DNA from: a virus
Direction: 5' to 3' (one strand)
DNA: 58,885 nucleotides
IMG/VR virus record: IMGVR_UViG_3300034120_000898
Span: 1 to 58,885 of that record
Shown: positions 573-57,186 of the stretch, in pieces
Numbering within the stretch: the first letter of the stretch is position 1
Layout: each line of letters begins with the position of its first letter
The notes under the pieces: generated by a model
Told to the model about the DNA's origin: nothing
Databases searched by the model: none
Seen by the model: the letters and a program-made list of their open reading frames with translations, nothing else
Position numbers and translations under genes: made by a program

Positions 573-580
573 GATAAATA
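573..580 (+). promoter_or_regulatory. T4-type late promoter core GATAAATA
   Basis: GATAAATA ends five bases before the ATG at 586. No Shine-Dalgarno sequence is visible upstream. A weak 7-bp inverted repeat (548-554 / 567-573) precedes it. Confidence 0.65.
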
Positions 581-585
581 ATAAC

Positions 586-3500
586 ATGCCATCTTATGTA
601 TATGCTTTAAGTTCTGGAGGAGATTTTACTAGTAATCAATTTTCTCCAACTTTAGATTATTATTTCAATAGAGATAATACGGTCTCGAATCACCAGCACC
701 TCCCTGCTGGTTATAAATATAGATCACAAGTTCTAGCTGCTAATAATCGTAATATAGATGGTATTCTGCTTCAGCATTATACTGGAACTAGAGATGATTC
801 TTCTATATTGTCAGCAACTATTAATGGCGTAACAAATTCATGGCGTTTAAGCGCGATGTATGATATTACTAATGTAGTCGTAAATCCTATTTATTATAAT
901 TCTACACCATCAGCTTGGAAGTATTTGAAATTTGCTAATAAAGTAACAAACCCAGGGGCTACTGTTGAAGTAGTGTTCGATGTTAGTACTGGAAATACAA
1001 TTGCGCCTGCATTTGATGTTGAAAAAGTACATATTGGATCTTTTGTTGCAAGACCAGGTGTAACAGACCCATCAAAGACTCTGACAAATAGATGGTGGCC
1101 TGCAAGTGGAGAAAATCAAGGTGGTTATTATTATTTCGATGGAACAATTAATTCGCATTTAACAGCAGATAAAGCTTTTGCGATGTCAACAGAATGGTAT
1201 TCTGCTTGTTGGCTAGTAGATAATTCGTCAAATCAATGGACTTATCATTATCCATATAATGGAAATAATTGTGGTACTCAAAATAGACTAGTTACAATAG
1301 TTCCAAATAATTATGTCGGATTGTATGTACATAATGCCTGCTATAGTTCAGGTACTATGCAGTTAAGTGGTGCTGTACCACCTACTGGTAGATGGTATTT
1401 TCTAGTAATCCAAAAACGAAATGGTCGTACTTATGCATATATAGACGGAGTACAATGTACTCGCAGAGCAGGACAACCTAATTATGAAAATCTTAATCTG
1501 TCAACAGCAGCAAGCTATTGGCTTAAATTTTATAATTTTCATGCTGGTCAATATTTTACTGGTGCTGTAGCACATCTTTCCGAGGGAGCATTAGGCGTTT
1601 ATACAGGAGATACCGAAGACTTTACGGGATTTGTTCCTAGGCTGTGGCCTTATGATTCTTGGTATACATATAACTATATTTATTTTTTTACTAGATTTAA
1701 TATGGCTTTGGTATCAGATACTTTATCATCATTATCAGCAATACCTAATTTTGGAGCGAATGATGATGTTTATATAACAAAACCGTATTATTCAAGAGAA
1801 TCTAATATTTCTAATAATACAGATCTAGTATCTATCACAGCAAATGTTAATGAAAATGTGCCTAGTATTGTTCTTGATAGAGCAGAACTTAAATTTGATC
1901 CAGCAAAAAAAGTTACGTTAACTCTAAACAATATAAAAGGACTTCAAATACAACCATATTGTGTATTGTCAATGGGAACTAAAGATAGTCCTATGTTATC
2001 AAGCGGGCATGCAGTTTTAAGTGGTACTCTTCCAATCAGATTAGATGCATATGAAAATGCAACTATAAGCATGTATGGAACAACGAAACAAAGATATGCA
2101 TATCTTGTTAATGATGCATTATCGGGTAGTAAATCATTCCAGACCACAGATGACATTTCCACCAATTGGCTACCAGGCGACACAGTACTATTTTATTATA
2201 ACACAGGAGGATCAACATTCGAAACATCCATAATAGACACGGTTTCTCCTTTTTCTTTTACAACAAGAACATCAATAAATAACACTGTATTAGGAATTAA
2301 TAAGGTTGCGATAGTACCTGCTGTATACAATTTAACTAGAAACGCAAGATTTGACTCTGTTGGCGGGTCTTTTAGTATTAGTGATTTTTCATCCGCATAT
2401 TTTGTTAATACAGAATTTAAAAATATAGGAACTAATACAATAGATGATCAGTATTTTAATAGAGTTTATAATACTGCTAATTTTTCTTTAATTTCTAGTG
2501 TATATCATTCTCCAAGTCCGTTTATTAGTGCTGGTGGAACTCAAGATATGTTATATCTTGATGGTGGTGATAGAAGCGAATTTTTGATGTATGATAATTT
2601 GTTTTATAGACATCAAAAAAGATGGATTGTATCTGGATTAACTTTTAGAAAACCTTCAAACTTTAGTAATAATTTCTTTTTGTGTGGAAGGGCAGAAGGA
2701 TTTGAGTTTTCTAATAATAGATTATATCATCCTCTTTATTTTAATAATAATGTAGCCATAGAAAATGGATACAATGGAATTGAAATGAGAGCTAATACGT
2801 TAATCGATCCTTATGTTAATTGTAATAATAATATAGCTATAGGAAATAGATACGTTGGTGCTACTTATGAATCTAATACTTTGTCTAGTTTAAGTTGTGA
2901 GAATTTTTACGGAAATAGAAATCATACAACTAATATTCAAATTCATAACAACTATATGTATAATAATGGAACTGTATATGCTCGTAATATAAGTTCTAAT
3001 AATTCAAATGTTGGATATGGGATGTATATCGAAGCTAATAGATTAGGAAGCATTTTTTTAAATGATTCGATAATTATAGATAATGCTGGAAGAGGAGTAC
3101 ATTTTGGTAATCATCTTCAAAGAGATAACACTTCTCCACAATATGTAAATTTAAGCGGTCTGTATATATTCTCAAATGGTGATAGAGGATTATACATGCA
3201 TACTAGTAATATTTATGGTAACATAAATATAAATAATTTGTCTTCTATCCAGAATCTTTATGGATTAGAACTTGATGGGTGTGATTCTTATAGTTTAAGT
3301 GCTAATAATATTATATGTAATACCAATCGAGGATATGCATTGAGATATGCAAATATAAAAAGTGGAGATGTTTATTTTAATAATATATTAGCATCTAACA
3401 ATCAATCAGATTCATTGTATTTTTATAGATCATCTGTAAGTTCTTTTGGAATTAATAATGCCTTTTTATCTTCAAACGTAGGAGGTGGAATATTTATAGA

Positions 3501-5739
3501 TACATTAACTGTTAAAGATAATTTAACTTTTACTAATATATATTCATATTTTAATAGAGCAAATAACGGAGTTTATTACTATAATATAAATTGCGATAAT
3601 TTTATTATTGATAATCAAATTGTATCAGCATGCGCCGTAAATACTGGCACTGCTGGAGGATTTAAAATAGATAGATTATATGCAAAGAATTCAATTGATA
3701 TTAATAATTTAACTGTTATAGATAATTGGTTTGTTGGAATTGATATAAAAAATATAAATCCTCGTTCATTTAAAATGAATAATGTATTAGTATCTGGAGG
3801 TAGATCTAATGCATCATATGGATTAAATGTAGATTTTATTTCTGCCGCAAGTTTAAGCTCTATAAATTTACAAAATATATCAGCAATTAATAATCCTTCT
3901 TATGGATCATTATATGATAATATCACTAGTATAAATTCTGTTTATATTAAAAATTATGTGAGTAATTTTAATAAAGGAAATGGATTTGGAATGTACATAA
4001 AAAAATCTCTTTCTGATGTAAACGTAACTTTACTTGATAGCGCATTTATATCTAATACAGGAACAGGTTGTACTATACATAATAGTTTCGATAATAAAAA
4101 TACTTCTTATTTGTATAATATAAATTCTAAATCTAATACATTAAATGGATTGAGCATTTCAGGTTCTAGTAATTATCTCAATCCTTTGAATTTAAGTTTG
4201 TTTAACTCTTATTTAAGTTCCAATTCATATGGTGGATTGGAAGCACTTAATGTATGCGGGAATATCAGTGCTACAGAAATACTAGACAATAAAAATAATA
4301 ACATCAGAGCTTTAATAGGAAATGGACCAGTTTTAATAGATTCTCTAACTTCTTATTATAATAATGTTGTAACAAAAAATCTTACTGGATATGGAAACGG
4401 AGGATTAACTTTATCTTCTTCTTCTCCATTCCCAACAGGAAACGATTCCTTGTATTTTAACGGAACTAACTATTTGGTTGCTCCTGCTAGCAATGATTAT
4501 GTATTCAATGGTAATTTTACTATTGAATTTTTTATAAATTTAAGAAATAATCCTGGTTGTACTTATTTAGATCAATGGTTTGGTAGTAGTGGTTGGCAGA
4601 TTGGTAATAACGGCAGCAAAACATTACAATGGTTCTATGATGGAACTAAAGTCTTAAATGGTCCAGTAATTTCATTAAATCAATGGAATCACATTGCATT
4701 GGTAAGAAATTCTAATAGATTAGGCTTGTATGTTAACGGTTTATCTACTACTGGAGTATTTTTTAGTGGTGGAATGGGTAGAAATGATTTGCTATATATA
4801 GGAGCGCAAAGATATTTGGGTCCGATATTCTTTGCGCCTATGTGGTTGTCTAATGTTCGTATTGTAAATAATGCTGCATTATATACAACATTATCATTTA
4901 CTCCACCAAGTTCTAAATTAGGTTCTACAGCAGGAAACGTAGCATTCTTATATCAGTATCCTTATGGGATACCATACACCTCGTTTCTAGGTCCAGCTAC
5001 TAGAAGTAATATATCTTTGTCTGGAATTAATTATCATACATTCTATATCAAAAATTCGAAATTGCATGATTCGGGATTTAGTTATTTTGCTGCTCCCGCA
5101 TTATTTTTTGATGCAACTAATTACAAACAATTTTATATTGATAATTCTAATGCTGGAAGTTCTCAATTAGGGGCTAAATCCATGACATATGGATCTTACA
5201 CTTTTAATAATTGTGCATTTAATAATATTCCAATACAAAATGGATTAGCTGGATTGTATCAACCTAATGCTTCGAAAACTACGGGTTGGGCTTATATGAA
5301 TTATAATCAAACAAGTGGTTATCATGTAACATACTATGCTAATGGATCTAGAATGATTGATACATCAATACATAATGATAACTATGTATCTGAAAGATTA
5401 ACTCCTACTAGTAGAACAGAGAAACTAAAAAGTGCTAGTAAGTTCGTAGCATTAAACAATGGAGATACTACATTTATTAGTGTATTTATCAGAAAATCTA
5501 CACTAGCTTCTGATGGTGAGGCTTATAATGGAAATCCTCCTAGATTAATCTTGAGACGAAATGTTTCTATGGGAATATATGATGATATTGTATTAGGAGA
5601 ATACGTTGCTACATCTGATTTGTTCCAACCGATAATTAATACCACACCAACAGTTATAGATGACGGTGTGTTAGAGTTTTATGTTGATTGTGACGGAACA
5701 CAAGGATGGATTAATGTTGATACTTGGTCTGCACAATAA
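586..5739 (+). CDS. Giant beta-helix/LamG adhesin, probable tail fibre or tailspike
   Basis: A 1717-residue virion-surface protein. Order of parts by eye: an N-terminal region; a first concanavalin/LamG-like domain (~180-365) with a GRWYFLVIQ...YIDGVQC pattern; a beta-rich segment resembling a G8 domain (~425-600, including WLPGDTVLFY); a long Asn/Ser-rich right-handed beta-helix (~630-1285) with repeated short strands; a second, clearer LamG_3-type domain (~1286-1445: FNGTNYL...FTIEFFINL...WNHIALVRN...LYVNG); then a ~150-residue C-terminal domain shared with the preceding gene. LamG and beta-helix folds in phages usually bind or degrade surface polysaccharide. No catalytic residues could be assigned, so binding versus depolymerase activity is open. 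The start is fixed by promoter spacing. Confidence 0.75.
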   Translation: MPSYVYALSSGGDFTSNQFSPTLDYYFNRDNTVSNHQHLPAGYKYRSQVLAANNRNIDGILLQHYTGTRDDSSILSATINGVTNSWRLSAMYDITNVVVNPIYYNSTPSAWKYLKFANKVTNPGATVEVVFDVSTGNTIAPAFDVEKVHIGSFVARPGVTDPSKTLTNRWWPASGENQGGYYYFDGTINSHLTADKAFAMSTEWYSACWLVDNSSNQWTYHYPYNGNNCGTQNRLVTIVPNNYVGLYVHNACYSSGTMQLSGAVPPTGRWYFLVIQKRNGRTYAYIDGVQCTRRAGQPNYENLNLSTAASYWLKFYNFHAGQYFTGAVAHLSEGALGVYTGDTEDFTGFVPRLWPYDSWYTYNYIYFFTRFNMALVSDTLSSLSAIPNFGANDDVYITKPYYSRESNISNNTDLVSITANVNENVPSIVLDRAELKFDPAKKVTLTLNNIKGLQIQPYCVLSMGTKDSPMLSSGHAVLSGTLPIRLDAYENATISMYGTTKQRYAYLVNDALSGSKSFQTTDDISTNWLPGDTVLFYYNTGGSTFETSIIDTVSPFSFTTRTSINNTVLGINKVAIVPAVYNLTRNARFDSVGGSFSISDFSSAYFVNTEFKNIGTNTIDDQYFNRVYNTANFSLISSVYHSPSPFISAGGTQDMLYLDGGDRSEFLMYDNLFYRHQKRWIVSGLTFRKPSNFSNNFFLCGRAEGFEFSNNRLYHPLYFNNNVAIENGYNGIEMRANTLIDPYVNCNNNIAIGNRYVGATYESNTLSSLSCENFYGNRNHTTNIQIHNNYMYNNGTVYARNISSNNSNVGYGMYIEANRLGSIFLNDSIIIDNAGRGVHFGNHLQRDNTSPQYVNLSGLYIFSNGDRGLYMHTSNIYGNININNLSSIQNLYGLELDGCDSYSLSANNIICNTNRGYALRYANIKSGDVYFNNILASNNQSDSLYFYRSSVSSFGINNAFLSSNVGGGIFIDTLTVKDNLTFTNIYSYFNRANNGVYYYNINCDNFIIDNQIVSACAVNTGTAGGFKIDRLYAKNSIDINNLTVIDNWFVGIDIKNINPRSFKMNNVLVSGGRSNASYGLNVDFISAASLSSINLQNISAINNPSYGSLYDNITSINSVYIKNYVSNFNKGNGFGMYIKKSLSDVNVTLLDSAFISNTGTGCTIHNSFDNKNTSYLYNINSKSNTLNGLSISGSSNYLNPLNLSLFNSYLSSNSYGGLEALNVCGNISATEILDNKNNNIRALIGNGPVLIDSLTSYYNNVVTKNLTGYGNGGLTLSSSSPFPTGNDSLYFNGTNYLVAPASNDYVFNGNFTIEFFINLRNNPGCTYLDQWFGSSGWQIGNNGSKTLQWFYDGTKVLNGPVISLNQWNHIALVRNSNRLGLYVNGLSTTGVFFSGGMGRNDLLYIGAQRYLGPIFFAPMWLSNVRIVNNAALYTTLSFTPPSSKLGSTAGNVAFLYQYPYGIPYTSFLGPATRSNISLSGINYHTFYIKNSKLHDSGFSYFAAPALFFDATNYKQFYIDNSNAGSSQLGAKSMTYGSYTFNNCAFNNIPIQNGLAGLYQPNASKTTGWAYMNYNQTSGYHVTYYANGSRMIDTSIHNDNYVSERLTPTSRTEKLKSASKFVALNNGDTTFISVFIRKSTLASDGEAYNGNPPRLILRRNVSMGIYDDIVLGEYVATSDLFQPIINTTPTVIDDGVLEFYVDCDGTQGWINVDTWSAQ

Positions 5740-5742
5740 ATA
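5735..5742 (+). promoter_or_regulatory. Late promoter core AATAAATA
   Basis: Five bases separate it from ATG 5748. The TAA stop of the upstream adhesin (5737-5739) is inside the core, so stop, promoter and next start occupy 16 bases. Confidence 0.65.
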
Positions 5743-5747
5743 ATAAT

Positions 5748-5939
5748 ATGGCTAATAGAAATGTAAATAACTTGCTGTCTTTTTGGTTTGATGGATCATC
5801 TTCATCAAGTATTAAAACCAAAGCAAATTCTTATACAGGATTACAAGCATATTGGATTGATGGTGCTCCCACAGGGTTTATAGGAGCAATAGCTAGAAAT
5901 CCAGTGCCTAGAACATATTCTATATTAATAAATTTCTAA
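5748..5939 (+). CDS. Small 63-residue protein, fibre-associated
   Basis: The start is placed at ATG 5748, not the in-frame TTG at 5724 that overlaps the previous gene, because the late-promoter core ends five bases upstream. The sequence begins MANRNVNNLLSFW, then has a Ser-rich stretch and a G-L-Q-A-Y-W-I-D-G-A-P-T-G-F motif. Short proteins or fibre segments with a similar K-T-x-T/S-x-x-x-G-L...W-x-x-G-x-P motif occur next to phage fibre genes, but I cannot name a family. It closes the plus-strand cluster and is followed by an orphan promoter match and a bidirectional terminator. It may be a small structural or accessory protein of the neighbouring adhesin. Confidence 0.5.
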   Translation: MANRNVNNLLSFWFDGSSSSSIKTKANSYTGLQAYWIDGAPTGFIGAIARNPVPRTYSILINF

Positions 5940-9000: not shown

Positions 9001-11224
9001 TATACCAATCACCAGAATTTGCATTTATTAAATTTCTTATTGTTGTTGTATCCCAAGAAGCAGAATAACCACATAAGATATTATAAGTGTCAGTCCAAGA
9101 ACCAGAAAAGACGTTATAGTTAGAATATAGTGGACCTATTTGGTTTGCCGCATCATTCCATTCTGCGGAATTAGCACATACTACATTATAAGTATTAACC
9201 CAAGCAGCAGAATATGCTTGGAATTGAGCAGAAACTGGAGAGAAATACGAAGCAACATCATTAAAGTTTGTTTGATTGTTGTTTATATAAGTTACTCCTG
9301 CATCATATAAACTTTTTTGGTTGTATACTGATTCCCAATTACCAGAATTAGATAATATTAAATTATTAAGATTATCTATATTCCATTTAGAAGAATTAGC
9401 GCATACCGTTGTGTATGTGGTATCCCAATTAGAGGAGTTTGCAGCATATTGTGTACTAATAGTTGCTAATGTAGTTCCTGCGCCACTCCAATTTGCAGAT
9501 AACGAACAAACTGTTTGATAATTAGTATCCCAATATCCAGAATTTATTAATAATAAATCTTTTATTGGTGTGATATCCCATGTGGATGAAAACGAACAAA
9601 CTGTAGTATAAGCAGTCTGCCAGCTACCAGAGCTTCCAGCATAACTAGTGCTTAACTGATCTAACGTAGATTTTGCAGTCTCCCAAGATCCAGAACTGGA
9701 TTGTAATGTATTATAACCATCGTTCCATTTACTGGAATTAGCACTTACATAAGTAAATAACGATCCTGTATCCCATGATGCAGAGTATCCACATACAGTA
9801 GTGTATGTAGAATCCCAATTACCAGAATTAGTATTATAATTTGATCTTAATATTACTATGTCATTATTGCTATTTTCCCATCTTCCAGAAGATGTTTGAA
9901 GAGTATTATATGCATCATTCCATCTACCTGATTGTGATTGAAATTCCGAAGAAACCACAGCAAAATTAGCAGCAACAAAATTCCAAGTTGCAGAATTAGA
10001 ACATAAAACTGTATACATACTATCGTATACAGATTGTCTAAAATACACAGAATTCCAATTAGCAGATCCTGATGTTAATATTGATAAAGCTGTTAAATCA
10101 GACCATACACCAGATTGTTGTTGAGTGGTTAAATACGCACTCTCCCAATTACCAGAATATGTCATATACTCTGTTGATAAAGAAGAAAGAGTGTTTCTTG
10201 CTGCTTCATTTAAGCCAGATATATCTCTTGTTGTGACGTATGCTGTGTTCCAATCTGCACTATAGGAAGTTAAAATTGATATGATTTGTGTTTTATCCCA
10301 TGAGGCTGAATAAGAACACACAGTATTATATGCGCTATCCCAATTACCAGAATTAGAGCTATATGCATTTGTTAAATTATATAAATCTGTTATTCCTTGT
10401 TCCCATGATGCAGATTTTGAACATATAGTAGTATATGTGTTGATCCAATTTGCAGAATTATTAAAAAATATAGTTGATAATGGCTCGTAATGAGTGGATA
10501 CTAGCAACCAATAACCTGAATTAGCAGCTACAGTAGAAGCCATGCTATCATATGTTGGTTTTAGATTGAAAACAGAATTCCAATTTGCAGAATTTGCTTC
10601 TACTACAGAAGCTGCACTATCGAATCTATAAGCATTTATTCTCATCCATTGTCCGCTATTAGCATTCAATGTTGCATATGCACTATCCCATCTTCCACTT
10701 GCCACGGAAATAACAGTAGCTGTAGCCTCTAATGAGGTTAATTGCTGCATTATCCCATGTGGGTATCTTATCATCGATCCATTTACTGTGGTAACAGTAA
10801 GCGAACCTGTAGTTTGATATTGACCATCACTTATGGTGTAAATTATACTGTCAGTAGAATCAAATCCATAAGATTTATAATATATTACGTTGTCTTTGAA
10901 CCATGCTCTACCATAATAAGGTTCTGATATATCAACAAGCTTTAATCCAACTACTAAATTATCTGGATCTGATATGTATGGCGTAATATCTATTTTAAGA
11001 TCATCATCAGTATTTCCAGAAAGCGTTATATTTCCTGCTGTGGGTGGCTGGTTTACTATATCTACATAATTTGTTAAGACTTTTGTAACTCCATTTTCAA
11101 CAGAAGTGTATATATAGTAATCTTTTCCTGTAAAACCTTGATTCGGGGTGTATATAAATCTAGTACCATTCCAGTACACCGTACCGTACAAAGGTTTCTT
11201 GTTAATAGTAACATTAATAGCCAT
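6017..11224 (-). CDS. Giant Ser-x-Trp repeat tail fibre protein (1735 residues)
   Basis: The N-terminus has two cadherin-like/Big_9 (tandem-95 type) modules (~1-60 and ~60-150; PLYGTVYWNG...FIYTPNQGFTGKD). Residues ~179-1381 are a continuous repeat array in which NS(G/A)xW recurs, usually every 14-17 residues; I counted about 68 Trp. Recurrent companion motifs are TVC(A/S)YS and QKSAYDS. A short module with VGINTSLPNKALTVVGDISATG-like sequence (~1440-1500), common in phage fibres, follows. The end is a C-terminal domain starting FDGGGD (~1622) that resembles terminal domains of other phage fibre proteins. The role is inferred to be a very long fibre or whisker with a distal receptor-binding tip. 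It is downstream of a paralogue with an 8-base gap and has its own promoter. The fold of the repeat is not recognised. Confidence 0.75.
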   Translation of the reverse strand: MAINVTINKKPLYGTVYWNGTRFIYTPNQGFTGKDYYIYTSVENGVTKVLTNYVDIVNQPPTAGNITLSGNTDDDLKIDITPYISDPDNLVVGLKLVDISEPYYGRAWFKDNVIYYKSYGFDSTDSIIYTISDGQYQTTGSLTVTTVNGSMIRYPHGIMQQLTSLEATATVISVASGRWDSAYATLNANSGQWMRINAYRFDSAASVVEANSANWNSVFNLKPTYDSMASTVAANSGYWLLVSTHYEPLSTIFFNNSANWINTYTTICSKSASWEQGITDLYNLTNAYSSNSGNWDSAYNTVCSYSASWDKTQIISILTSYSADWNTAYVTTRDISGLNEAARNTLSSLSTEYMTYSGNWESAYLTTQQQSGVWSDLTALSILTSGSANWNSVYFRQSVYDSMYTVLCSNSATWNFVAANFAVVSSEFQSQSGRWNDAYNTLQTSSGRWENSNNDIVILRSNYNTNSGNWDSTYTTVCGYSASWDTGSLFTYVSANSSKWNDGYNTLQSSSGSWETAKSTLDQLSTSYAGSSGSWQTAYTTVCSFSSTWDITPIKDLLLINSGYWDTNYQTVCSLSANWSGAGTTLATISTQYAANSSNWDTTYTTVCANSSKWNIDNLNNLILSNSGNWESVYNQKSLYDAGVTYINNNQTNFNDVASYFSPVSAQFQAYSAAWVNTYNVVCANSAEWNDAANQIGPLYSNYNVFSGSWTDTYNILCGYSASWDTTTIRNLINANSGDWYTSYTIICANSSRWTNSLLLLTALSTNFSTNSGLWDMTTNVVCTYSAFWNENSLRSILSANSGNWNSVYRQKSAYDSTYNTVCAYSGIWTTAYTVLCVNSAAWDTKTITTILSVNSANWSSVYRQKSAYDSTYSTVCAYSGLWTNAYTVISANSAKWDVTSLTTILSVNSANWNSVYRQKSAYDSTYNTVCAYSGAWKTASDIVSSTYNTWDIGTLGTIISSNSANWNTLYYKMSVFNNGLNTLTANSGNWDQVYTILSAKSAEWDVSYLTSFLSSNSADWQKMLLRKSSYDAAYYSVCSLSASWQTAYTTMVDNSANWGTALLVSLLTSGSANWNSTYTIVSTNSANWQSSASILSILSTNYAQYSGNWDSTYNTVCSFSGYWDNSNVAYTIISTYSAGWEDVYKNKGYYDAAYTILTANSALWYDPVNNISITNLIANNSAKWTNAFNIVTASSAAWNQNIIDVLSVANAYKTYSGDWQIAYTYIKANSGNWDNSNLVSVVNTNSGNWTDSYTKLSQSSGNWNNTYSYLTSINTDYNDNSARWDSTYTTVCAYSGYWSSLSDVTTLSANSGYWTSVYNTICSFSGYWNSLSAAYDRYNVFYTVLTANTGAWEALTNVISSNSAAWVAPYNIIYNNSARWLSGSSSQDYYANNLYVASGAIIYGTLSALGQIVALSTSSTSPATAFNIYNTGFTDALVVTKTQLSGALGTFTYNGSAVLYIDPNNKVGINTSLPNKALTVVGDISATGMIYGFTPPEFLAFTTMSATYEAAAAYLTLSGSNINSIFLAKAGYDSTDTYVRSVCDNVSNFFSVTKPLYDSAYATTVSQTATLINSYTFLNTNSSKIGTDTLFRSKSSSYDSAYSYIRATSGTVGSSQLNFVFDGGGDVVASGSTGVIQIPAKVLVSSWSLMNDRSATVYVEILSSTFANYPVFDRISGDNNANNDYIKSNRATKNTNSTLVNWKPILEQDTILKFNLLVNDNAGNVTISLRCIKI
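7082..10690 (-). repeat. Coding repeat array, Ser-x-Trp units
   Basis: About 1.2 kb of amino-acid-level repeats per third of the gene. Some blocks are also close at DNA level, for example three copies around 8450-8820 that encode VNSANWxSVYRQKSAYDSTY followed by NTVCAYSG-type sequence. Such near-identical copies suggest recent duplication or recombination inside the array. Confidence 0.8.
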
Positions 11225-11229
11225 AAGTA

Positions 11230-11237
11230 TATTTATC
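11230..11237 (-). promoter_or_regulatory. Late promoter core GATAAATA (minus strand)
   Basis: Five bases upstream of ATG 11224. It contains the TAA stop (11235-11233) of the upstream fibre gene. Confidence 0.65.
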
Positions 11238-16305: not shown

Positions 16306-16310
16306 ATTAC

Positions 16311-16318
16311 TATTTAGA
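16311..16318 (-). promoter_or_regulatory. Late promoter core TCTAAATA (minus strand)
   Basis: Five bases upstream of ATG 16305. It forms the left arm of the 13-bp inverted repeat in this divergent intergenic region. Confidence 0.65.
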
Positions 16319-16377: not shown

Positions 16378-16385
16378 TGTAAATA
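16378..16385 (+). promoter_or_regulatory. Late promoter core TGTAAATA
   Basis: Five bases before GTG 16391. This spacing is the main reason for accepting the GTG start. Confidence 0.6.
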
Positions 16386-16390
16386 CCTGT

Positions 16391-17854
16391 GTGCAGATTT
16401 TACTAGATAACAATAAAATTTCTAATTATTCGTTAATACCAGAAGGAATGAATACTTTTGGCTATGAAAGTTTGAATGAAGTTTTCTTTGATGTATACGA
16501 AATAAAAAGTAATGGCTTGGATTTAGTAAAAGAAAAAAAGGGCGATTTTGATGGCAATCCTATCATAGAATTTGATATTCGTGTTGACAACGAAATCTAC
16601 AAGAATGTTCGATTTGTTCTTACAAAAGAAAACAAAATTTGTATTAATCCAAATTTGCTAGACCACACAAAAGTCGTAGCATACGAAAAGAAGGCAGAAA
16701 AACTTAAAGAAACACCAAAACTGCCAGTAATAAAAGAAAACGAAGAAGTTTTCGTAAAACAAAAAAACAAGGTAATTCAAGAAGATCCTGTAATTAAAGA
16801 AGAGAGCTTGATAGAGAAAACAAAAAAAGAATTTTTCGAATCTATCAGAGGAGAAGTATTGGAAGAACTAAAAAGAGAAATAAAAGCGGGTATTATTTCT
16901 GATTTAATCAAAGAAAACGTACAGATAAATTTTGATTCAGTAGTTTCTGACAACGGAAATAAAAATAAATTACAAAAGATTCTAGAAAATTACAATAATT
17001 CTTTCAGAAAAGATTACATAGAATTAGCGGAAAAGGTTTCTAGGAGAGAAGCAATGCGCTATACAGAAGGTGGTGGAGGAACCAATGCCGTACAGTTCGC
17101 AAACGGAGGAAGAATGGACGGTGATTTGTTTGTTACTGGGAACTTCCAATCAAATTCGATGGCAGTTGGTGCGTTGAATGTTGATTCACTAATAGTGAAT
17201 AAATTAAGCGCAAATACTCAGTTTGTGTTTAATGATTTAACTGTTGCCCAAGGATTCACTGCTAATAACATTTATTCCAACTATATCGAAACACTTTCAT
17301 CCAAAGTTAAAGATGTTTTATATGTAGATAATAATGCATATGTATCTGGATTGTTGAGCGCAAATAGAATAACAGTAGATACCACATTAAATGTAGATAC
17401 TCTTACGGCTAATTATGGAGTTATAAATCATGATTTAACTGTTTATGGAGATTTGTGTGCAAATAGAGGATATATAAACACAAATTTAACTGTGGCAGGA
17501 GCAGTTAGCTCTGGTAGTGGTCACGTTTTAGGTGATGTTTTAATCACAGGAAATTTAAAAGTTTTAAACTCAATTGATGGAGGTTCAATAATTGGAAGTA
17601 CTATTGTAGGAAGTAATTCATTAGAAAAAGCTGTCAAGAATATAACAGGAGCTAGTTTCGTAAATGGAGATTGTACTGTGGTACACAATTTAAGTACATA
17701 TGATCTATTACTTACTTTGTATAGTGTGAATCCAGACGGGAAAAATGAAGTTGTTCATGCATCCATGATCAACAATTCTCTCAGTACAACTCTGATAAGT
17801 TTTGCGGAACAACCAGATCCTTCAGAAAATTATAGATTGATAATAATTAAATAA
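16391..17854 (+). CDS. Fibre-like virion protein with N-terminal adaptor and coiled coil (487 residues)
   Basis: It starts with GTG. Residues ~1-100 form a globular N-terminal region ending in a Lys/Glu-rich linker. Residues ~135-220 are strongly charged and probably a coiled coil. After RREAMRYTEGGGGTNAVQFANGG (~219-240), a junction I know from other phage fibre-like proteins, come ~200 residues of short beta repeats (GDLFVTGNF, LNVDSLIVN, LSANTQFVF, GDVLITGNL). The end is a small domain with VVHNLSTYDLLLTLY...YRLIIIK, resembling the C-terminal domain of the next gene. Likely a trimeric fibre or head/tail decoration fibre whose N-terminus attaches it to the virion. The partner is unknown. 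It is the first of five co-oriented fibre genes. Confidence 0.65.
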   Translation: MQILLDNNKISNYSLIPEGMNTFGYESLNEVFFDVYEIKSNGLDLVKEKKGDFDGNPIIEFDIRVDNEIYKNVRFVLTKENKICINPNLLDHTKVVAYEKKAEKLKETPKLPVIKENEEVFVKQKNKVIQEDPVIKEESLIEKTKKEFFESIRGEVLEELKREIKAGIISDLIKENVQINFDSVVSDNGNKNKLQKILENYNNSFRKDYIELAEKVSRREAMRYTEGGGGTNAVQFANGGRMDGDLFVTGNFQSNSMAVGALNVDSLIVNKLSANTQFVFNDLTVAQGFTANNIYSNYIETLSSKVKDVLYVDNNAYVSGLLSANRITVDTTLNVDTLTANYGVINHDLTVYGDLCANRGYINTNLTVAGAVSSGSGHVLGDVLITGNLKVLNSIDGGSIIGSTIVGSNSLEKAVKNITGASFVNGDCTVVHNLSTYDLLLTLYSVNPDGKNEVVHASMINNSLSTTLISFAEQPDPSENYRLIIIK

Positions 17855-17871: not shown

Positions 17872-17879
17872 ACTAAATA
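17872..17879 (+). promoter_or_regulatory. Late promoter core ACTAAATA
   Basis: Five bases before ATG 17885, inside the 30-base gap after the preceding fibre gene. Confidence 0.65.
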
Positions 17880-17884
17880 TTAAT

Positions 17885-18627: not shown

Positions 18628-18635
18628 AGTAAATA
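18628..18635 (+). promoter_or_regulatory. Late promoter core AGTAAATA
   Basis: Five bases before ATG 18641, directly downstream of a terminator, which supports independent transcription. Confidence 0.7.
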
Positions 18636-18640
18636 TTGGT

Positions 18641-20002: not shown

Positions 20003-20005
20003 ATA
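19998..20005 (+). promoter_or_regulatory. Late promoter core GTTAAATA
   Basis: Five bases before ATG 20011. It includes the TAA stop (20000-20002) of the upstream gene. Confidence 0.65.
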
Positions 20006-20010
20006 ACATT

Positions 20011-37070: not shown

Positions 37071-37076
37071 ATGTAT

Positions 37077-40067: not shown

Positions 40068-40072
40068 ATGTA

Positions 40073-40080
40073 TATTTATG
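40073..40080 (-). promoter_or_regulatory. Late promoter core CATAAATA (minus strand)
   Basis: Five bases upstream of ATG 40067. It separates the fibre cluster from the baseplate operon. Confidence 0.7.
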
Positions 40081-45000: not shown

Positions 45001-45585
45001 TCCATTATTAGATTTCATGAATAAAGAAATCTTGTTATCTTTTTTATCTAATACATATTTGAAGGTAGAACTCTCTGGAGTGGCAGATAAAGAAAATTTG
45101 AATTTTTCGTCATCATAATTATAATTTAAATAATAAAAATTTCTATCTTTGCTTCTGTGCATTATTTTTGCATCAGTCTCATCAATAATGTTGATTTCAA
45201 AAATTCTTGCAGTCTTTTCTACGAATTTTTGATCCTTTAAAGTAAAAAAATAAACAGCATCAAATGCTCCGCTAACAGAAGATATCGTAAGATACAAATT
45301 TGTGGTTGGATCTACCAAAGATGTGTTAAATGACAGCAGATCTATTTGCTGTTCAGTTTGTAATCCTTTAAAATTTAAAAAATCAGAAAATTTTTGTTTA
45401 TCAGTGAGATAAATAGATGAATAATTGTTTATATTTCTGTCTGTGACATTACTTAAATATGGTTCATTACATGATGGAATTCCTTCTTCTGTATTTGATT
45501 TGAAAGATACAAATTGTATATCAGTATCTTCAGAATAAGAAGTTGATAGTGCGACTGAATTAGACTCTAGATTAAGAATATCCAC
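42013..45585 (-). CDS. Very large baseplate-region protein with LamG-like and propeller-like parts (1190 residues)
   Basis: The GTG start is supported by a late-promoter core exactly five bases upstream. A first LamG-like stretch at ~570-640 (YTISFWARSDDW...) and a second at ~1010-1120 (YHHFAFRIDGIEGYISVFCDGKEID...LQIKQFKMYKRALTNTEIQYHVY) flank a propeller-like region (YIYFLTNKIGTVVAFDTTTEKLTTI, YKDGLYAFNGYRAKQF, YYVLHNTNKISKFTKD). The last ~60 residues look like a small mixed alpha/beta tail. Concanavalin-type domains in a baseplate protein suggest an exposed carbohydrate-binding surface. The assignment as structural rests on operon position. Confidence 0.55.
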   Translation of the reverse strand: MDILNLESNSVALSTSYSEDTDIQFVSFKSNTEEGIPSCNEPYLSNVTDRNINNYSSIYLTDKQKFSDFLNFKGLQTEQQIDLLSFNTSLVDPTTNLYLTISSVSGAFDAVYFFTLKDQKFVEKTARIFEINIIDETDAKIMHRSKDRNFYYLNYNYDDEKFKFSLSATPESSTFKYVLDKKDNKISLFMKSNNGLFSLKISDYSLEMEYVTSNVTKNYFNVNYYIQKILPKLNTSWVSYDIRHKNSYDINPERSADNLLNNYIIHTQYSNLTGNEMPVNFLTLKNQKTNKNYNYRSNFLQKENENVPTVDNRTYYGLFTGNEQEKGSYAITTGYEFYNNDYRLEPDTYNIFFTPESLYPYKQININDLNWHRMGSIAAENPYLSDRIYKKTAQTGEITAQYLCSWLHKNRKGEYVWLDRYYHPDKTTFAEALQTTFNYSNIDQNVELFNTSLKTEEYYDVPFVYNTPEEELQATPQTIKSAVYGISFYDKRSDLVILPNTEYIYYRVGDEYVKSVLKTITDDMIENGLIPKNGNDSYVYVDDIDTDDVEYTFNNNCYSMLNNYKSVNDSHQYTISFWARSDDWSKKSGYQIIGNLNNKGLALLDDRKITPFITVQNKKKVYTFNTNFNSINQASLENEAEMEFMFIKDVYKTDHLDSYSTISTSTEFRTDYPLDGIPLITKFNSNSVLYDALGDQAMPYESMTYNHGDYIYFLTNKIGTVVAFDTTTEKLTTIPQSFATEIPLFLKPKEYINYNEEKQAILHEDMVKYVNLPQGEDVHSILKYKDGLYAFNGYRAKQFVNDTVLYIKDNILYQESFDREIKYQLLKSKTNIIDFYIDDEYNYYVLHNTNKISKFTKDRILLYSTTLKPSISTVFNGFGIIANDEIELFKIDYVREYTKYGLSSYPIILGKIKNGTRDIQPNELFLGRLDESVTNTILQDINIVSYANFLGLTAVNYDYGDVRKINYNLTNYEQLNSRYPEKNELVFKLVLQNAYNNTEKINVEIPISKDKFTSEYHHFAFRIDGIEGYISVFCDGKEIDTVSIRKGQYIFQDIVRENMAIGKTYFYNNETLDAHLGQKNYYFINGLQIKQFKMYKRALTNTEIQYHVYRGIGINDLVVSLPCDQRNELDGIDRQFKLNTTGNKSNKINLIVKNSQLTNSEVTEKMKSLIIEKLEKVLPITTTINEIQFR

Positions 45586-45589
45586 TTAA

Positions 45590-46060
45590 TTATTTAATTT
45601 TTAAGTTTAAAATATCACCTTTTAATGTATCTAAAGTTATAAACATAGAATTATCAGCATTATCGATAAATTGGCATGAAGCCACTGTTAATTTTTCGTG
45701 TTGAGAATAAAACGAAGATTTTCCTATTGCTATAGGAATTTGGTAGTATAATTTAGTAAAATTTGCAAAGACAATGATAAATGTTGGATAATATATCATA
45801 TAATGATGCGAATCTGTTGGTTCATACCTACCAAAGATAGGTTGTTTCATCTTTTCTGGATCATCATAAGAGTAATCTTTAATAATAACTGGTGTATCGT
45901 TATTTAAATCAGCAATAATTTTAAGTATTGGTATGTTTCCAGAGCCAACAGCACTAAATGTGAACATCACATCAGTTTGACCCTTGAATCTTTTTAATTC
46001 CTCATAATACTGACGATCAATTCCATTGAAATTAGCTGGTATAATATAATTCGTATTCAT
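45590..46060 (-). CDS. Hypothetical 156-residue baseplate-operon protein
   Basis: Not recognised. It is a predicted compact beta protein (DVMFTFSAVGSGNIPILKIIADLNNDTPVIIKDY, HHYMIYYPTFIIVFANFTKLYYQIPIAIG) without signal peptide or membrane segment. It is sandwiched between two giant structural genes, with one base before it and its stop overlapping the next promoter, so it is probably a minor baseplate component or assembly factor. Confidence 0.55.
   Translation of the reverse strand: MNTNYIIPANFNGIDRQYYEELKRFKGQTDVMFTFSAVGSGNIPILKIIADLNNDTPVIIKDYSYDDPEKMKQPIFGRYEPTDSHHYMIYYPTFIIVFANFTKLYYQIPIAIGKSSFYSQHEKLTVASCQFIDNADNSMFITLDTLKGDILNLKIK
45591..45598 (-). promoter_or_regulatory. Late promoter core ATTAAATA (minus strand)
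   Basis: Five bases before GTG 45585. Its last two bases overlap the TAA stop of the upstream 156-residue gene. Confidence 0.6.
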
Positions 46061-49000: not shown

Positions 49001-49106
49001 ATAAAGAAAACGGAGAATTAAAATCCAAGTAAGATTCGGGAGTAGAATCCGAATTGGTTATTGAATATAATACTAGTATTTTAGAGAATACAAATGAATT
49101 AGACAC
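46062..49106 (-). CDS. Large baseplate-region structural protein (1014 residues)
   Basis: GTG start, five bases after a late-promoter core. The N-terminal ~300 residues are helical and charged (NYIEEWNKAKKIKDVKVLDTIQERYFELIKDI; KVIEICDFYNKKREKLKYKIDKNKNKG), unlike the beta-rich remainder. The latter includes propeller-like or LamG-like segments (YNNFLWIRTENYNIVEILNYEQDKFVYSE; QKYAVVSTLEDQNGLAYILQMKFWYDG). It probably sits near T4 gp7-gp8 functionally, by position: third gene after gp25-like. No specific family is recognised. Confidence 0.5.
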   Translation of the reverse strand: MSNSFVFSKILVLYSITNSDSTPESYLDFNSPFSLFDYLKYTQNNVNANELEDSYSNYIEEWNKAKKIKDVKVLDTIQERYFELIKDITVNYTTSDEKRFLANIDFDDPTEVDILLPFFSNKVIEICDFYNKKREKLKYKIDKNKNKGTFNSIEKSIYETITDVIFSDVLNVGVYQPSVNYKTLLKKLDIEIEELYDLYTNYLDNDPDETYKKYDVKTKLRQDLYTANINFIDANIFLNISKAVKNQLLENVRIFLTEFGRLFTINYDTDTINLDCKPNEALYDLITNNRPKAERLVKLKESLIKKYIGSDFYYIQTGSTITDVTSAILFKADNPSGNLLNRHFPTTASVEEESDVQSCRRIGLFFTPEKNSILYYSVPEKRYKLDYKKLQPNKLYIFPDPDKYGNTTGLKRTFDSKYPLIHICDYTKSVKNLDQGLSEGDINSTAYTQDFYAYFSKNQIVDSIYTGKEGLKTNFSSMYNMGVVTKWSSDIFGNQFALFKDKSRRNIIDNSFFISNSSLVCEEYDGGPIKFFEEANDYLPEVVYTTHPDWVKPNIWSSYYYYNISIDGGVGGIRNGIMVRPLYEFPTRIDGMMINYIKRQSVVFDVNINPLIFKDLLLIDGNFYNLLDDTIDRSKIFYNWDINILHETINDRISYTIDGLRYTRNPSNISDSLSSTLDGNAEDNVSKDKPSFNNGYILSSIKYKDFDAGLITEICEMDFDFEDQTKFIINQTLASSKTLSSDHVQQDNKNSYELRNTLGRIYVRDIVSGNITPLISALSIILVNKYNQTVLEEIDRKVLDFNIYNNFLWIRTENYNIVEILNYEQDKFVYSETIANHTQYDSTGVLNNISNPFIFENREYAMMVQLSAVNTISNNFGVVPFIYKIDYTKATKTKIYPHENSDFTLFYNNSSLNQIKLNRINPPVLTFNTRNQKYAVVSTLEDQNGLAYILQMKFWYDGVDISSFDVKLYNFINNEYIKTINFYDTPSLTQNNITFNNITLNNTASFDSDVLTFS

Positions 49107-49110
49107 ATAA

Positions 49111-52100
49111 TTATTTAATAACCCCTAATCCTTTTGCTAAAGAATATGTTATCATCTTATTTTTTATTTGATCCCATTGGTTTACAGAAGATATCTTCTC
49201 AGATATGGTATTATATGGGTCTGCCCAATTTATAAGACCCTCTGTTTGTAGATCCAAATAAGCTTTTTTGTACTCAAAAAATTGATAATATCTAGGAATT
49301 TGCTCATTAACATATTCGTCAGGCAAACTCAATCCCCAGCCCCAATTTTTATGATATGAACTCAAAGCGTATGTTCTATTAACAGGATCAATAAAATTGA
49401 TATAAGAAGAACTTAACAAATTGGTGTTTATCCTTTGATATGTCTCACTAAACTTTTCGTAGGCTATTATATCTACACCAGCAGTCAGTACACTTGTAAA
49501 GAAATTCAATTCATCACCTTTATTTGTTCCATATATACTATCTACTGAAGTGTATCCTTTCTTATCGTAATTTTGGTCAAATTTATTTCTACTTCCTTTA
49601 ATTTTAGAAAAGTTAATAGAAAATATATCAACCAAGCGATTCAATTCCGCAGGAAAATTATAATCATTATTTTTAAACGAATACAAAGTTTCATCAAACA
49701 TAGAATACATAGATTCTAATGCTTGTATATTACAAGTATCAATATTGTTTACGTTATCTGTAAAATTTGATATTTTTTCATAAATTAATTTTCCGAGATA
49801 TGCTGGACTAGATGTGCTGTCTCCCACAATAGTACCGATAAAATCCTGAAAAAGAATATTAGAATTTACTAGATATTCTTGAAATCTATAAGAATTTATT
49901 TGTGTTTTTAGATCAAAGTTCTCATTTAATTTTCTTATGTTGAGACCACCAGATCTGTTAGAATATATAGAAAACGTATTGCTATCTCCTAGTATTCTAA
50001 ATTCTTGTGCGTCTGCACGGACATATTTATTTATAAATTTAAATCCGTTCCAATCTCCATATGCATTCAATTTGTCCTGTATATTTACAGGATTGTTAGA
50101 TATTGAATGTAAGTCAAGACTTTCTACAATAAATCCAGTTCCACTGGTATCAACATCCGAATCAAAAGAATGCAATTTTTTATTTTTATTATCTACGACA
50201 ACTATAATATTCTCAGTAGTGCATGCTATGCCTTCCAAATCACTAATATAATTATACTGATCGTTTACTGCTACAGTTGATAATGTATATGTATTAATAG
50301 TATTAAGTATATTATTAATTTTTGCTACTTGATTTATATTTTTAGTAACCCATATATTGTCATATACATCTATTGTAATATTCCACAAGCTTCCTTGGAC
50401 AGAAAAATATTCTACGTTTTGTCCAAATTTATCTATTTTAAAAACTTGGTCATTTTTACTAGATAATGTATTGGTTACAGACTTGTCTTTCATTATACCC
50501 CATACATTCATTTTTCTATCAGTAACAATTTCTGTTATTTGGTATGCAGGATCTAGTATTTTAGACACTAACAACCCTCCAACAGAATTATATTTTTCTA
50601 TAAAAGATGATAATTGGTTTGAATAACTCACCCAAACATTATTATCTCTATCAGTGTCTATAGACGCTGGAGTTATAGTATTTTGTTCGTTTATTATTTG
50701 ATTTGCTAGTGATGATACAATTATTCTATTTGGATAAACTAAATTTGATATAGTACTTATTTTTAATACGCTTATAGAGTCATATAATGTTACCCAAACA
50801 TCCCCAGAGGAATCAGCGCAAATGTCAGATGGCGAGCAACTATCTGGGAGTGTAAAATTATTATACAATACATTAAATGATCCATCGTATTTGGATATTT
50901 TATCTCTATCTGCATCTACTAACCAAATTTCATTAACATATTGTCTACTAGTTGGATCTAATCTAGTGACTACACATGAAGAATATATCCCAGATAACGA
51001 ATCTACTGTTCTTATTGTATCTACTAATGTTTTAGTTCCAGTACTTGCATCCGTTTGAAATCTAATATCGTGAACTTTTTCGTATTGAGGTTCATTTATT
51101 ATAAAATATGTGGTTTGTGTTCTATATTCTTCGAATACAGTTGGTGCAGCCACAGCATGGATATGAACATTTCTTAATTCTTTATCAGATATAAAATATC
51201 CTTTAAAAAATCCTCCATATGTTTCTGAAGACAACACACCAAAATTAGAATAAAATTGTATTCCGTCAATCTTATTATTGTTTTCATCTCTCAAACAAAC
51301 ATAAACTTGTGCAGAAGATGGAGGGTTCGAATCAGTTAACGTAAGTACTTTATTTCCTTTTGATGGAGAATTTTTGGGATCTTTTATTCTTACCACAAAA
51401 GGAATTTTCTGATTTGTATATTTTTCTTCGTATATATTAAAAGAAGTTATAGGATTATCATATCCGTCAGAATCTATACCGTTGGAAGTAATAGTTAAGC
51501 GATCAGAATCTGCCTTTTGCATCAAAACCGCATAAGAATTTGCATCTAGTATGGTATTGATTATTGGATAAGTAGTACTTGGATAATTCTTATTGAAAGA
51601 ATCATGATCTTTAAATCTTCTCGAATCAAAAGACACAAAAATTCTAGTTGGTTTTGATACTGTTATGTTTATTGGTTGTTTGATTACATCATCTATATAA
51701 AAAAATCTTTTTCTTCCATAAGTACCAGCAAAACAAGAACCTCTATCATTTTTATCACAAAAAACTAGTTGGTTATTTACTAATCTAACATATAATTCTT
51801 CGTTAGATGTTTCCACAGTATTTACGGGAAGAATAGCTTCTGATCCATTGTATGGATCGTTAGTCAAAGATTCGAATCTTGCTGTTGCCTTTAGGTGACC
51901 CCATTTATCTTTTTCATATTTAACTACATCTAATATAGGAGAGTTATTTCCTGTTACATGTAGATTTATTGTATACGGAACAGGATTTTTGGGATCGTAT
52001 GTCTGCCAACTATTGTATCGAAATACTTCGAAAGGACTTTCTCTAGTTCCTGCTTGTGTTTTCTTATTAAAACCAGTTAACACTAAAGTATCTGTTATAA

Positions 52101-54234: not shown

Positions 54235-54714
54235 TTATTGTCTAAAAACGTAACCATTATTATTTAATGTGCCTAATAAGGGTACATTAATTATATTTAA
54301 AGATGGTATATTTATTACCAATGTTATGTCAAATTCATTAACATCTTCCAAAACTGTTATGTTAATGTTCTTTATTTTAACTCTAGGCTCAAATTTAGCT
54401 ATTTGCCTGTATATTTCATCCCGTATGTTCTCTGCAACGTCTCTAGTTGCTGGATCAAATAGATATTTTCTAAGGTCCATTCCGAATTCTGGATTCAAAA
54501 CCTTCTCTCCTGGTGTTGTGGAGAATAAATTTGCCAAGGAATTCTTAATAGCATTTATATCATAGTCTAATTTGAAATCATTTATCTCTGGTTTTTGGTA
54601 TAAAGTGTTTCCTACATTGTAACTACCTTCCAAATCCAGATGAAGATCAGCATATAAATATTGTTTTCCTCCATTTATATTCTTTGGAAGACCATTTAAT
54701 GTTATTAATGCCAT
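54235..54714 (-). CDS. Baseplate wedge protein, gp25-like
   Basis: 159 residues with the family hallmark TTPGEKVLNPEFGMDLRKYLFDP (~66-88) and the EPRVKI motif (E109-P110-R111) common to gp25/VgrG-cluster sheath-initiator proteins. gp25 starts sheath polymerisation at the wedge. It is slightly longer than T4 gp25 (132) because of an N-terminal extension. It is first in the baseplate operon, with a late-promoter core five bases before its ATG, and divergent from the plus-strand gene at 54747. Confidence 0.95.
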   Translation of the reverse strand: MALITLNGLPKNINGGKQYLYADLHLDLEGSYNVGNTLYQKPEINDFKLDYDINAIKNSLANLFSTTPGEKVLNPEFGMDLRKYLFDPATRDVAENIRDEIYRQIAKFEPRVKIKNINITVLEDVNEFDITLVINIPSLNIINVPLLGTLNNNGYVFRQ

Positions 54715-54719
54715 AAAAT

Positions 54720-54727
54720 TATTTAAC
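54720..54727 (-). promoter_or_regulatory. Late promoter core GTTAAATA (baseplate operon)
   Basis: Five bases upstream of the gp25-like ATG 54714. It is back-to-back with the plus-strand core at 54734; only six bases separate the two. Confidence 0.75.
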
Positions 54728-54733: not shown

Positions 54734-54741
54734 GATAAATA
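54734..54741 (+). promoter_or_regulatory. Late promoter core GATAAATA
   Basis: Five bases before ATG 54747. It would overlap the coding region if the upstream ATG 54732 were used, which argues for 54747 as the true start. Confidence 0.7.
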
Positions 54742-54746
54742 ATCGT

Positions 54747-55280
54747 ATGGAAAAGAAATTTATTAAAGTCTTAGAATCTGCTATGTCTAGATACACCCGT
54801 GGAGGGTTTTTAGTTGGTGATTATGTAGAATTTGTTAAAAACTACAAAACTTTGGAAGCATATAAACAATTACAAGACTTAATGAGAGAAACCATTGATG
54901 ATTTGATAAAATCCAACCTTAGAATTCGTGTTGTTGGTGTAGATGATTATTATCCTGTACGGTTTGCAGGTTCAGCGGAACATACAAACGGAAAAGTGAC
55001 AATTAAAATAGCTGCTGATCATGGAGGAGGAAGAAATATGTATGCTATTACCGTTTGTCCTAGTTTATTAACAGTATTAGATTTCTATCCAAATTTAGCT
55101 CCTTTGCCAGACCAATTTAACCGTCCAAACAACGAAATTCTCCAACCTAAAGAGGTTGGAGAAGTCCAAGGAGCAATCAAAGGTGCTGATTATTCTCTCC
55201 CCACAAAGAATGTGGAGTTGAAAATAACTAAATCTAAGAAGAAAAAGGGAGAATCATATACTGCTAACTACATGCAGTAG
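54747..55280 (+). CDS. Hypothetical 177-residue phage protein
   Basis: The start is moved from ATG 54732 to ATG 54747 by promoter spacing. It opens MEKKFIKVLESAMSRYTRGGFLVGDYVEFV, then a helical segment, and a beta part (LRIRVVGVDDYYPVRFAG...NGKVTIKIAADHGGGRNMYAITVCPSLLTVLD). The C-terminus is Lys-rich. The TRGGFLVGDYV-type opening recalls small conserved proteins of unknown function in T4-like marine phages; this is a recollection, not a match I can verify. It converges on the clamp loader gene and overlaps its stop by 17 bases. Confidence 0.6.
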   Translation: MEKKFIKVLESAMSRYTRGGFLVGDYVEFVKNYKTLEAYKQLQDLMRETIDDLIKSNLRIRVVGVDDYYPVRFAGSAEHTNGKVTIKIAADHGGGRNMYAITVCPSLLTVLDFYPNLAPLPDQFNRPNNEILQPKEVGEVQGAIKGADYSLPTKNVELKITKSKKKKGESYTANYMQ

Positions 55281-56711: not shown

Positions 56712-56719
56712 TATAAATA
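56712..56719 (+). promoter_or_regulatory. Exact T4 late promoter TATAAATA
   Basis: Perfect consensus five bases before ATG 56725, and divergent to the dUTPase promoter. Confidence 0.8.
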
Positions 56720-56724
56720 TTCGT

Positions 56725-57186
56725 ATGTCTGATGATAATGAACTAGATACTACAGTAAATTCTATATTAGATCAATTAAAAGATGTTCCTGCTGTAGCAA
56801 AAAAAGCAGAAAAACTTTCTGTTGATTCGAATAAAGAAGCTTTAGAAAATTTCGTAGTAGAATATGCTAGTCGTTTGATAGAAAACGCAACAGAGTCTGT
56901 GGAATACATTAAAGACTCTGTACAAGCCGCACCAACTGCTGATGATGTAATATCATTGGCAGAACTTATCAAGTCCACTTCTTCTGCTTTGGAAGTTTTA
57001 AACAAAATAGTAGTCAACAACAAAAAGATTGATACTTCTCTAGCTATAAAGAAAATGGATATAGAAAGCAAGAGAGAAGAATTAGAAATAAAATCTAATA
57101 CCATATTAATAGCTTCAAGAGAAGAGATGATGAATCAATTATTTAAAAAAGCTAAAACTATAGAAGCAAATGTAATTGATGTTTAA
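56725..57186 (+). CDS. Probable small terminase subunit, gp16-like
   Basis: 153 residues, acidic N-terminus, almost entirely helical. The central segment (VVEYASRLIENATESVEYIKDS...APTADDVISLAELIKSTSSALEVLNKIVVNNKKI) follows the T4 gp16 pattern: a helix of the IFLETAKNA type, then a helical hairpin that oligomerises, and a Lys-rich helix after it. The size fits gp16 (164). gp16 forms a ring that regulates the large terminase at the start of packaging. The large subunit (gp17) is not in view, so the call rests on pattern only. Its stop shares TTAA with the convergent gene at the right edge. Confidence 0.5.
   Translation: MSDDNELDTTVNSILDQLKDVPAVAKKAEKLSVDSNKEALENFVVEYASRLIENATESVEYIKDSVQAAPTADDVISLAELIKSTSSALEVLNKIVVNNKKIDTSLAIKKMDIESKREELEIKSNTILIASREEMMNQLFKKAKTIEANVIDV

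Follow-up and report, generated by a model that had tools for sequence, protein, structure and literature searches.

Promoters of two classes predicted to place transcription starts on start codons in an uncultured lineage of T4-superfamily phages

Phage T4 is the textbook example of leadered, Shine-Dalgarno (SD)-driven late genes. Its late promoter, the 8-mer TATAAATA, begins at position −13 and is recognised by gp55 with the help of gp33 and of the clamp gp45 (PMC2988020); it thus ends at −6 and leaves five bases before +1, and the preliminary description of the DNA analyzed here, which located the T4 late core at about −13 to −6, agrees with that source. In T4, the base six positions past TATAAATA is a purine at 81% of the sites, often with T before it, and the distance from core to start codon has its maximum at 28. 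The cyanophages S-PM2 and Syn9, likewise of the T4 superfamily, have late promoters of the same core family, NATAAATA (PMC2984593), and in Syn9, S-PM2 and P-SSM2 the core-to-start distances are spread broadly over 20-28. In pelagimyophages, published searches for late promoters were unsuccessful (PMC7029224).

In Deinococcus-Thermus, with −10 boxes adjoining ORFs, and in Actinobacteria, with TA-like leaderless genes, +1 coincides with the start codon and leaderless mRNA is common (PMC12340547, PMC3160421). Lambda cI and other leaderless phage mRNAs also begin with AUG, but these are single genes and follow no genome-wide rule (PMC9031893). Leader lengths measured in Lactococcus fall into two classes, shorter than 5 nt and around 40 nt, and the range from 4 to 14 is empty (PMC10986495). 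A 5'-terminal GUG performs well in mycobacteria, whereas E. coli uses it poorly to initiate leaderless translation (PMC4633059, PMC9031893). In the open-access literature, no report of a start-abutting arrangement in T4-like phages, cyanophages or pelagiphages was found; most subscription papers lie outside that literature, and novelty is provisional.

The window, i.e. the whole stretch of DNA analyzed, is a 58,885-base viral fragment (IMGVR_UViG_3300034120_000898) with a GC content of about 31%. It encodes T4-type gp25 (54235-54714, minus strand), gp6 (52403-54232, minus) and a gp44-type clamp loader (55264-56241, minus), as well as a dUTPase, a dexA-like exonuclease and several tail-collar fibre proteins; gp17, gp18, gp20, gp21, gp23, gp41, gp43, gp46, gp47, gp55, gp61 and uvsX of the T4 type are present in its relatives. 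By these core genes, the window and its relatives are T4-superfamily myoviruses. No DNA-level match to the window was found among 50,697 phage records; its gp6 shares only about 24% identity with cyanophage gp6, and the gp23 of a relative at best about 32% with known phages, indicative of a lineage without a close sequenced isolate in that phage collection. Judged from its genes, the window is a member of a large, diverse, uncultured T4-superfamily lineage. Because the window record is a fragment of 58,885 bases, the rest of the genome was examined in relatives, among them G001 (236 kb) and G007 (197 kb). Gene starts were our own calls (leftmost ATG or GTG), and the relatives are statistically non-independent.

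Three tail-collar fibre paralogues in the window (26688-28433, 37541-38833 and 38838-40067, all minus) are located near other large tail-like ORFs of unknown family. The distant relative G007 has a one-piece tmRNA gene with the tag AANKVVDFVLPQAEPQFALAA (ARAGORN; L212:15777-16193, minus) and genes for tRNA-Leu, -Met and -Arg (L213:17578-17653, 17878-17953 and 19007-19082, minus), and tRNA genes are absent from G001 and G002. In several relatives, gp17 (terminase large subunit) is split over two separate ORFs, which suggests an intron, intein or other insert:

G001, gp17 ORFs at 130852-131241 and 132543-135128
G004, gp17 ORFs at 42389-45124 and 45144-45839
G006, gp17 ORFs at 33927-35393 and 36332-36988

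The hexamer TAAATA occurs 138 times on the two strands of the window. In what follows, d counts the bases that separate TAAATA from an ATG or GTG opening an ORF of at least 60 aa. The preliminary description had listed 16 start codons preceded by this core at exactly five bases, three of them GTG, along with two exceptions, at six and ten bases; all coordinates, codons and spacings were verified:

575..588, plus strand: TAAATA (575-580), five bases, ATG 586; 1717-aa LamG-type protein, ORF 586-5739
5737..5750, plus strand: TAAATA, five bases, ATG 5748 of a short ORF; ORF 586-5739 ends with the TAA of this core
16380..16393, plus strand: TAAATA, five bases, GTG 16391
17874..17887, plus strand: TAAATA, five bases, ATG 17885; virion structural protein (PHROG)
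18630..18643, plus strand: TAAATA, five bases, ATG 18641
20000..20013, plus strand: TAAATA, five bases, ATG 20011; ORF 18641-20002 ends with the TAA of this core
21094..21112, plus strand: TAAATA, ten bases, ATG 21110; exception, 5-nt leader predicted
54736..54749, plus strand: TAAATA, five bases, ATG 54747; divergent from the gp25 promoter, orthologues keep the spacing
56714..56727, plus strand: TAAATA, five bases, ATG 56725; d = 5, 6 or 8 in orthologues
11222..11235, minus strand: TAAATA, five bases, ATG 11224; ORF 11233-16305 ends with the TAA of this core
16303..16316, minus strand: TAAATA, five bases, ATG 16305
28431..28444, minus strand: TAAATA, five bases, ATG 28433; tail collar fibre, ORF 28442-30340 ends with the TAA of this core
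31299..31312, minus strand: TAAATA, five bases, ATG 31301
37068..37082, minus strand: TAAATA, six bases, ATG 37070; exception, 1-nt leader predicted, exactly five in the G001 and G003 orthologues
40065..40078, minus strand: TAAATA, five bases, ATG 40067; tail collar fibre
45583..45596, minus strand: TAAATA, five bases, GTG 45585; GTG at exactly five in the orthologues of four relatives
49104..49117, minus strand: TAAATA, five bases, GTG 49106; GTG at exactly five in the orthologues of four relatives
54712..54725, minus strand: TAAATA, five bases, ATG 54714 of gp25 (baseplate wedge); d = 5 in six relatives, d = 6 in two more

The designation of all these as structural genes was too broad, given that 586, 54747 and 56725 are among several starts of genes without a demonstrated structural role. 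At 5737-5750, 11222-11235, 20000-20013 and 28431-28444, a mere 14 bases hold a stop codon, a promoter and a start codon. The product of ORF 586-5739 (plus strand), a gene with a late promoter ahead of it, contains a LamG/concanavalin-like lectin domain near the C-terminus of its 1717 aa and is possibly a cell-surface-binding virion protein. One further start at d = 5, a GTG near 30100 (minus), is an in-frame codon within ORF 28442-30340 and probably a chance match.

Inclusive of that site, the window has 17 starts at d = 5 and single starts at d = 4, 6 and 10; at greater distances, the count is about 0.5 per position (p for d = 5 ~ 4 × 10−20, Poisson, compared to 0.48 per position at d = 30-60). 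Without the ORF filter, TAAATA-N5-RTG was found 18 times, compared to a mean of 5.4 and a maximum of 11 in 60 Markov shuffles. The spacing peak that had been predicted for the rest of the genome was found in eight relatives: from d = 4 to d = 10, the counts are 2, 69, 18, 10, 4, 6 and 2 in G001 (p ~ 1 × 10−75 for d = 5) and 1, 45, 11, 10, 8, 5 and 2 in G007, against totals of 3 and 7, respectively, at d = 0-4. This sharp left edge at five and the tail to nine are as expected if the start codon cannot precede +1 but may sit 1-4 bases inside the transcript. Starts with TTG, unlike those with ATG and GTG, show no peak at d = 5. A peak at five or six holds in relatives with gp6 identities of 49-56%, 44-46%, 41-42% and 38-40%.

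A de novo positional 6-mer scan of 944 starts from the nine clade genomes identified TAAATA at −11 to −6 as the top signal (171 occurrences compared to about 5 elsewhere). The hexamer is invariant by selection, whereas the leading TA of the T4 core (−13/−12) is not conserved, i.e. the core is relaxed relative to T4. Orthologues hold the spacing while the five spacer bases vary, as observed for gp25 in six relatives and for its divergent neighbour in five, and 31 distinct divergent gene pairs carry cores on both strands with the same spacing (5-6 nt being allowed in the search). The base at −1 is frequently T (88% in the window, 58% in G001), and the start codon, ATG or GTG, supplies a purine at the predicted +1, as expected of leaderless mRNA.

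When genes were compared by class, TAAATA at d = 5-9 preceded 42 of the 79 named late genes but only 3 of the 67 named early genes (Fisher p = 4 × 10−11), the restriction to late genes that characterizes a T4-type late promoter; conversely, a TATAAT-like box at d = 5-8 was found at none of the 79 late and at 25 of the 67 early genes (p = 2 × 10−10), both p values being nominal because the genomes are related. After genes with TAAATA were dropped from the 6-mer scan, TATAAT at −12 to −7 and TTGATT/TCTTGA at −36 to −30, with TTGATT at −35 to −30, emerged, which is the canonical numbering of a host promoter counted from the start codon. The early genes of the clade have a host-type TTGA-N16/17-TATAAT promoter, with the −10 box ending six bases before the start codon. 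Under a −35/−10 model (TTG.., spacer of 16-18, TA...T), the distance from the promoter end to the start was 6 nt in 32 cases, 5 nt in 8, 7 nt in 6 and 8 nt in 3, with other distances occurring at most 3 times each; the −35/−10 promoters of cyanophages peak 22-26 nt before the start. In G007, TATAAT ends 6-8 nt before the start codons of gp32, gp55, gp43, uvsX, gp61 and dexA, and the window contains an example:

26646..26682, minus strand: host-type promoter of an early gene, the dexA-like exonuclease; −35-like TTGCTA (26682-26677), 16 nt, −10-like TATTAT (26660-26655), 6 nt, ATG 26648

Two unrelated promoter classes, with different sigma factors, appear to agree, each by its own geometry, on a +1 at the start codon. 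The initial attribution of this register to late promoters holds for the TAAATA units but is too narrow, since the early −35/−10 promoters of the relatives share it.

Among the 180 unambiguous unit heads of the clade (genes whose upstream neighbour is on the opposite strand), TAAATA at 5-9 was found at 115 and a sigma70-like promoter at the same distances at a further 27, which makes 142 in total, and the other 38 have neither; by the same count, T4 has 0 of 12, HTVC008M 3 of 6 and cyanophages 1 of 18. Together with the shared peak in the relatives, this proportion supports the proposed genome-wide rule. In G001, TAAATA is denser at unit heads (25 of 53) than at close same-strand genes (29 of 152), and in the clade the operon-internal gp6 and gp44 never have it, whereas the adjoining gp25 always does.

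The TAAATA promoter resembles the T4 late promoter in its core, TAAATA being the minimal part of TATAAATA, its inferred place relative to +1, the lack of a −35 box, the late genes on both strands that it precedes and the presence of gp55 in relatives. However, T4 genes start some 20-30 nt past the core behind an SD, and cyanophage cores are mostly 20-28 nt from starts, whereas in the clade the distance is exactly 5 nt and there is no SD; the leading TA, too, is a point of difference from T4, as is gp33, which was not detected. Pelagibacter phage HTVC008M (Kyanoviridae) has 12 TAAATA-N5-ATG starts, mostly of late or virion genes, all 12 of which are annotated CDS starts (compared by eye), including those of gp25 and the divergent gp2/gp4. 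An SD is present at 2 of these 12 compared to about two thirds of its remaining genes. Unlike in the clade, only a subset of HTVC008M genes is involved, the SD is strong elsewhere, and the early promoters show no start-abutting peak.

At 31% GC, TAAATA is common, and chance matches in an A+T-rich genome are to be considered; given the p values for the window and G001, and the lack of such a peak in T4 and cyanophages (35-41% GC), this explanation is exceedingly improbable. Hardly better is the prospect that the spacing stems from genome compaction at translationally coupled stop-start junctions, with TAA followed by ATA-N5-ATG: of the 17 cores in the window, 4 contain the previous stop at offset 0 and another two contain it at offset 4, but 54 of the 69 cores in G001 overlap no stop codon, and such an origin is largely ruled out by the divergent pairs with the same spacing on both strands.

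The two motifs might instead act in RNA, as an A/U-rich leader bound by the ribosome or by S1 in an SD-less host, the mRNAs being ordinary leadered ones. Their position is that of a ribosome-binding site, and the clade as a whole shows no SD enrichment, as is the case in hosts with A-rich initiation regions. Such a signal, however, would have to come as two unrelated sequences divided by temporal class, each with its own promoter geometry and the early one with a −35 box; it does not account for the excess of TAAATA at unit heads or for the contrast between gp25 and its neighbours gp6 and gp44; and TAAATA is the T4 and cyanophage late core, located 20-28 nt further upstream in leadered relatives. 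We consider a translation signal very unlikely, and to much the same degree we doubt that the cores are late promoters with a core-to-+1 distance other than that of T4, such that leaders are short rather than absent or transcription starts inside the ORF. The relaxation at −13/−12 speaks for a departure from T4, whereas the left edge at exactly five is the T4 geometry, the purine at +1 and the frequent T at −1 match T4, TTG lacks the peak, and an independent promoter class yields the same +1. The distance histogram with its left edge, the k-mers, the orthologues, the control phages and the gene classes all support the original prediction of leaderless late mRNAs with +1 on the start codon. Very probably, then, this is a T4-superfamily lineage in which transcription units mostly start at the start codon, through gp55-type late and sigma70-type early promoters.

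As claimed initially, none of the 16 listed starts has an SD; in G001, the fraction for leaderless-type starts is 4%. The further claim of a contrast with operon-internal genes, exemplified by a perfect SD before 34873-35055, fails. That gene is unrepresentative: SD-like matches precede 16% of the core-less operon-internal genes of G001 compared to 13% of random positions (T4, 57%; HTVC008M, 61%), so that across the clade leaderless and operon-internal genes are both at or below background. Because the SD is missing clade-wide, its absence at these starts does not discriminate in favour of leaderless mRNA. Phage-encoded aids to leaderless initiation were also sought, and bS21, IF3 and S1-domain proteins were not found in the nine clade records (bS21, 0 of 9); HTVC008M alone encodes bS21 (NC_020484.1, 91228-91431).

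The T4-type late sigma factor gp55 is encoded by G001, G002, G007 and G008 and is absent from the window fragment. In the clade records, most of which are fragments, gp33 was not detected and the gp45 clamp was found only in G002, both proteins being small or divergent; the clamp loader gp44 is present. Activation may accordingly differ from that of T4, or these proteins have diverged beyond detection, and the genes found explain the late machinery only in part. In G001, gp55 (G001:103528-105030, i.e. L082:3528-5030, plus) is interrupted, with gp55 matches flanking an in-frame insert that has a weak Pfam intein-splicing match (E = 7 × 10−6, below the curated cut-off) and might be intein-like; a late sigma factor would be an unusual location for an intein.

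The major capsid gene gp23 seems to be an exception. In G001 (L080:9427-10983, minus), TAAATA is found at −112, −71 and −46, the nearest core lying 40 nt upstream, and in G007 (G007:172465-173991) there is no core within 120 nt; the gp23 mRNA of both seems, on this evidence, to be leadered, such that a leader may be retained by the gene whose expression is expected to be highest. Within same-strand runs, upstream promoters may also be used, and leadered copies could coexist with leaderless ones.

In late units, the gp55-bearing RNA polymerase would open NNTAAATA at −13 to −6, with +1 at the A or G of ATG or GTG and a leader of 0 nt, or in a minority of cases of at most about 4 nt, which falls in the Lactococcus class of leaders shorter than 5 nt. 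In early units, host polymerase would act on sigma70-type TTGA/TATAAT with the −10 box at −12 to −7, again with +1 on the start codon. The promoters, their spacing and its conservation, the split by gene class and gp55 are observed directly and argue strongly for this part of the scheme. The ribosome, most likely in the form of a 70S particle, would then bind the 5'-terminal AUG or GUG, as we infer from known leaderless translation (PMC9031893). Downstream genes, with neither leader nor SD and often 1-5 nt past the previous stop, would probably be reached by reinitiation; 24% of core-less same-strand genes in the clade start 0-5 nt past the previous stop, compared to about 10% in T4, HTVC008M and cyanophages, which fits reinitiation by ribosomes that have just ended the previous gene.

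With respect to the host, no match for gp6 or nrdA relatives was found in bacterial genomes. A Bacteroidota host was rejected: the promoter motif of that phylum, TANNTTTG, is not clearly enriched, whereas canonical TTGA/TATAAT is present, so that the missing SD alone is no pointer to Bacteroidota. Given the behaviour of GUG in mycobacteria and E. coli, the predicted host would be of a mycobacteria-like kind in this respect. The closest parallel comes from Deinococcus-Thermus, where the −10 box adjoins ORFs (PMC12340547); however, there and in Actinobacteria cellular genes and host sigma factors only are involved, whereas the clade is a lytic-phage lineage that uses two promoter classes, of which one is phage-specific.

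A tentative extension, possible but on balance doubtful, is that these phages live in, or impose, leaderless-dominated translation of both early and late genes, with SD-led initiation essentially unused. If the arrangement is as described, the position of promoters and the mode of translation can shift together over a whole viral genome, and the host ribosomes would be predicted to handle 5'-terminal AUG and GUG well. It would account for the late promoters missed in pelagimyophages with cyanophage methods (PMC7029224) and offer an accurate start-codon rule for the annotation of clade genomes. The lineage would also open a way to study leaderless translation beyond actinobacteria and Deinococcus, and provide an unusual natural test system.
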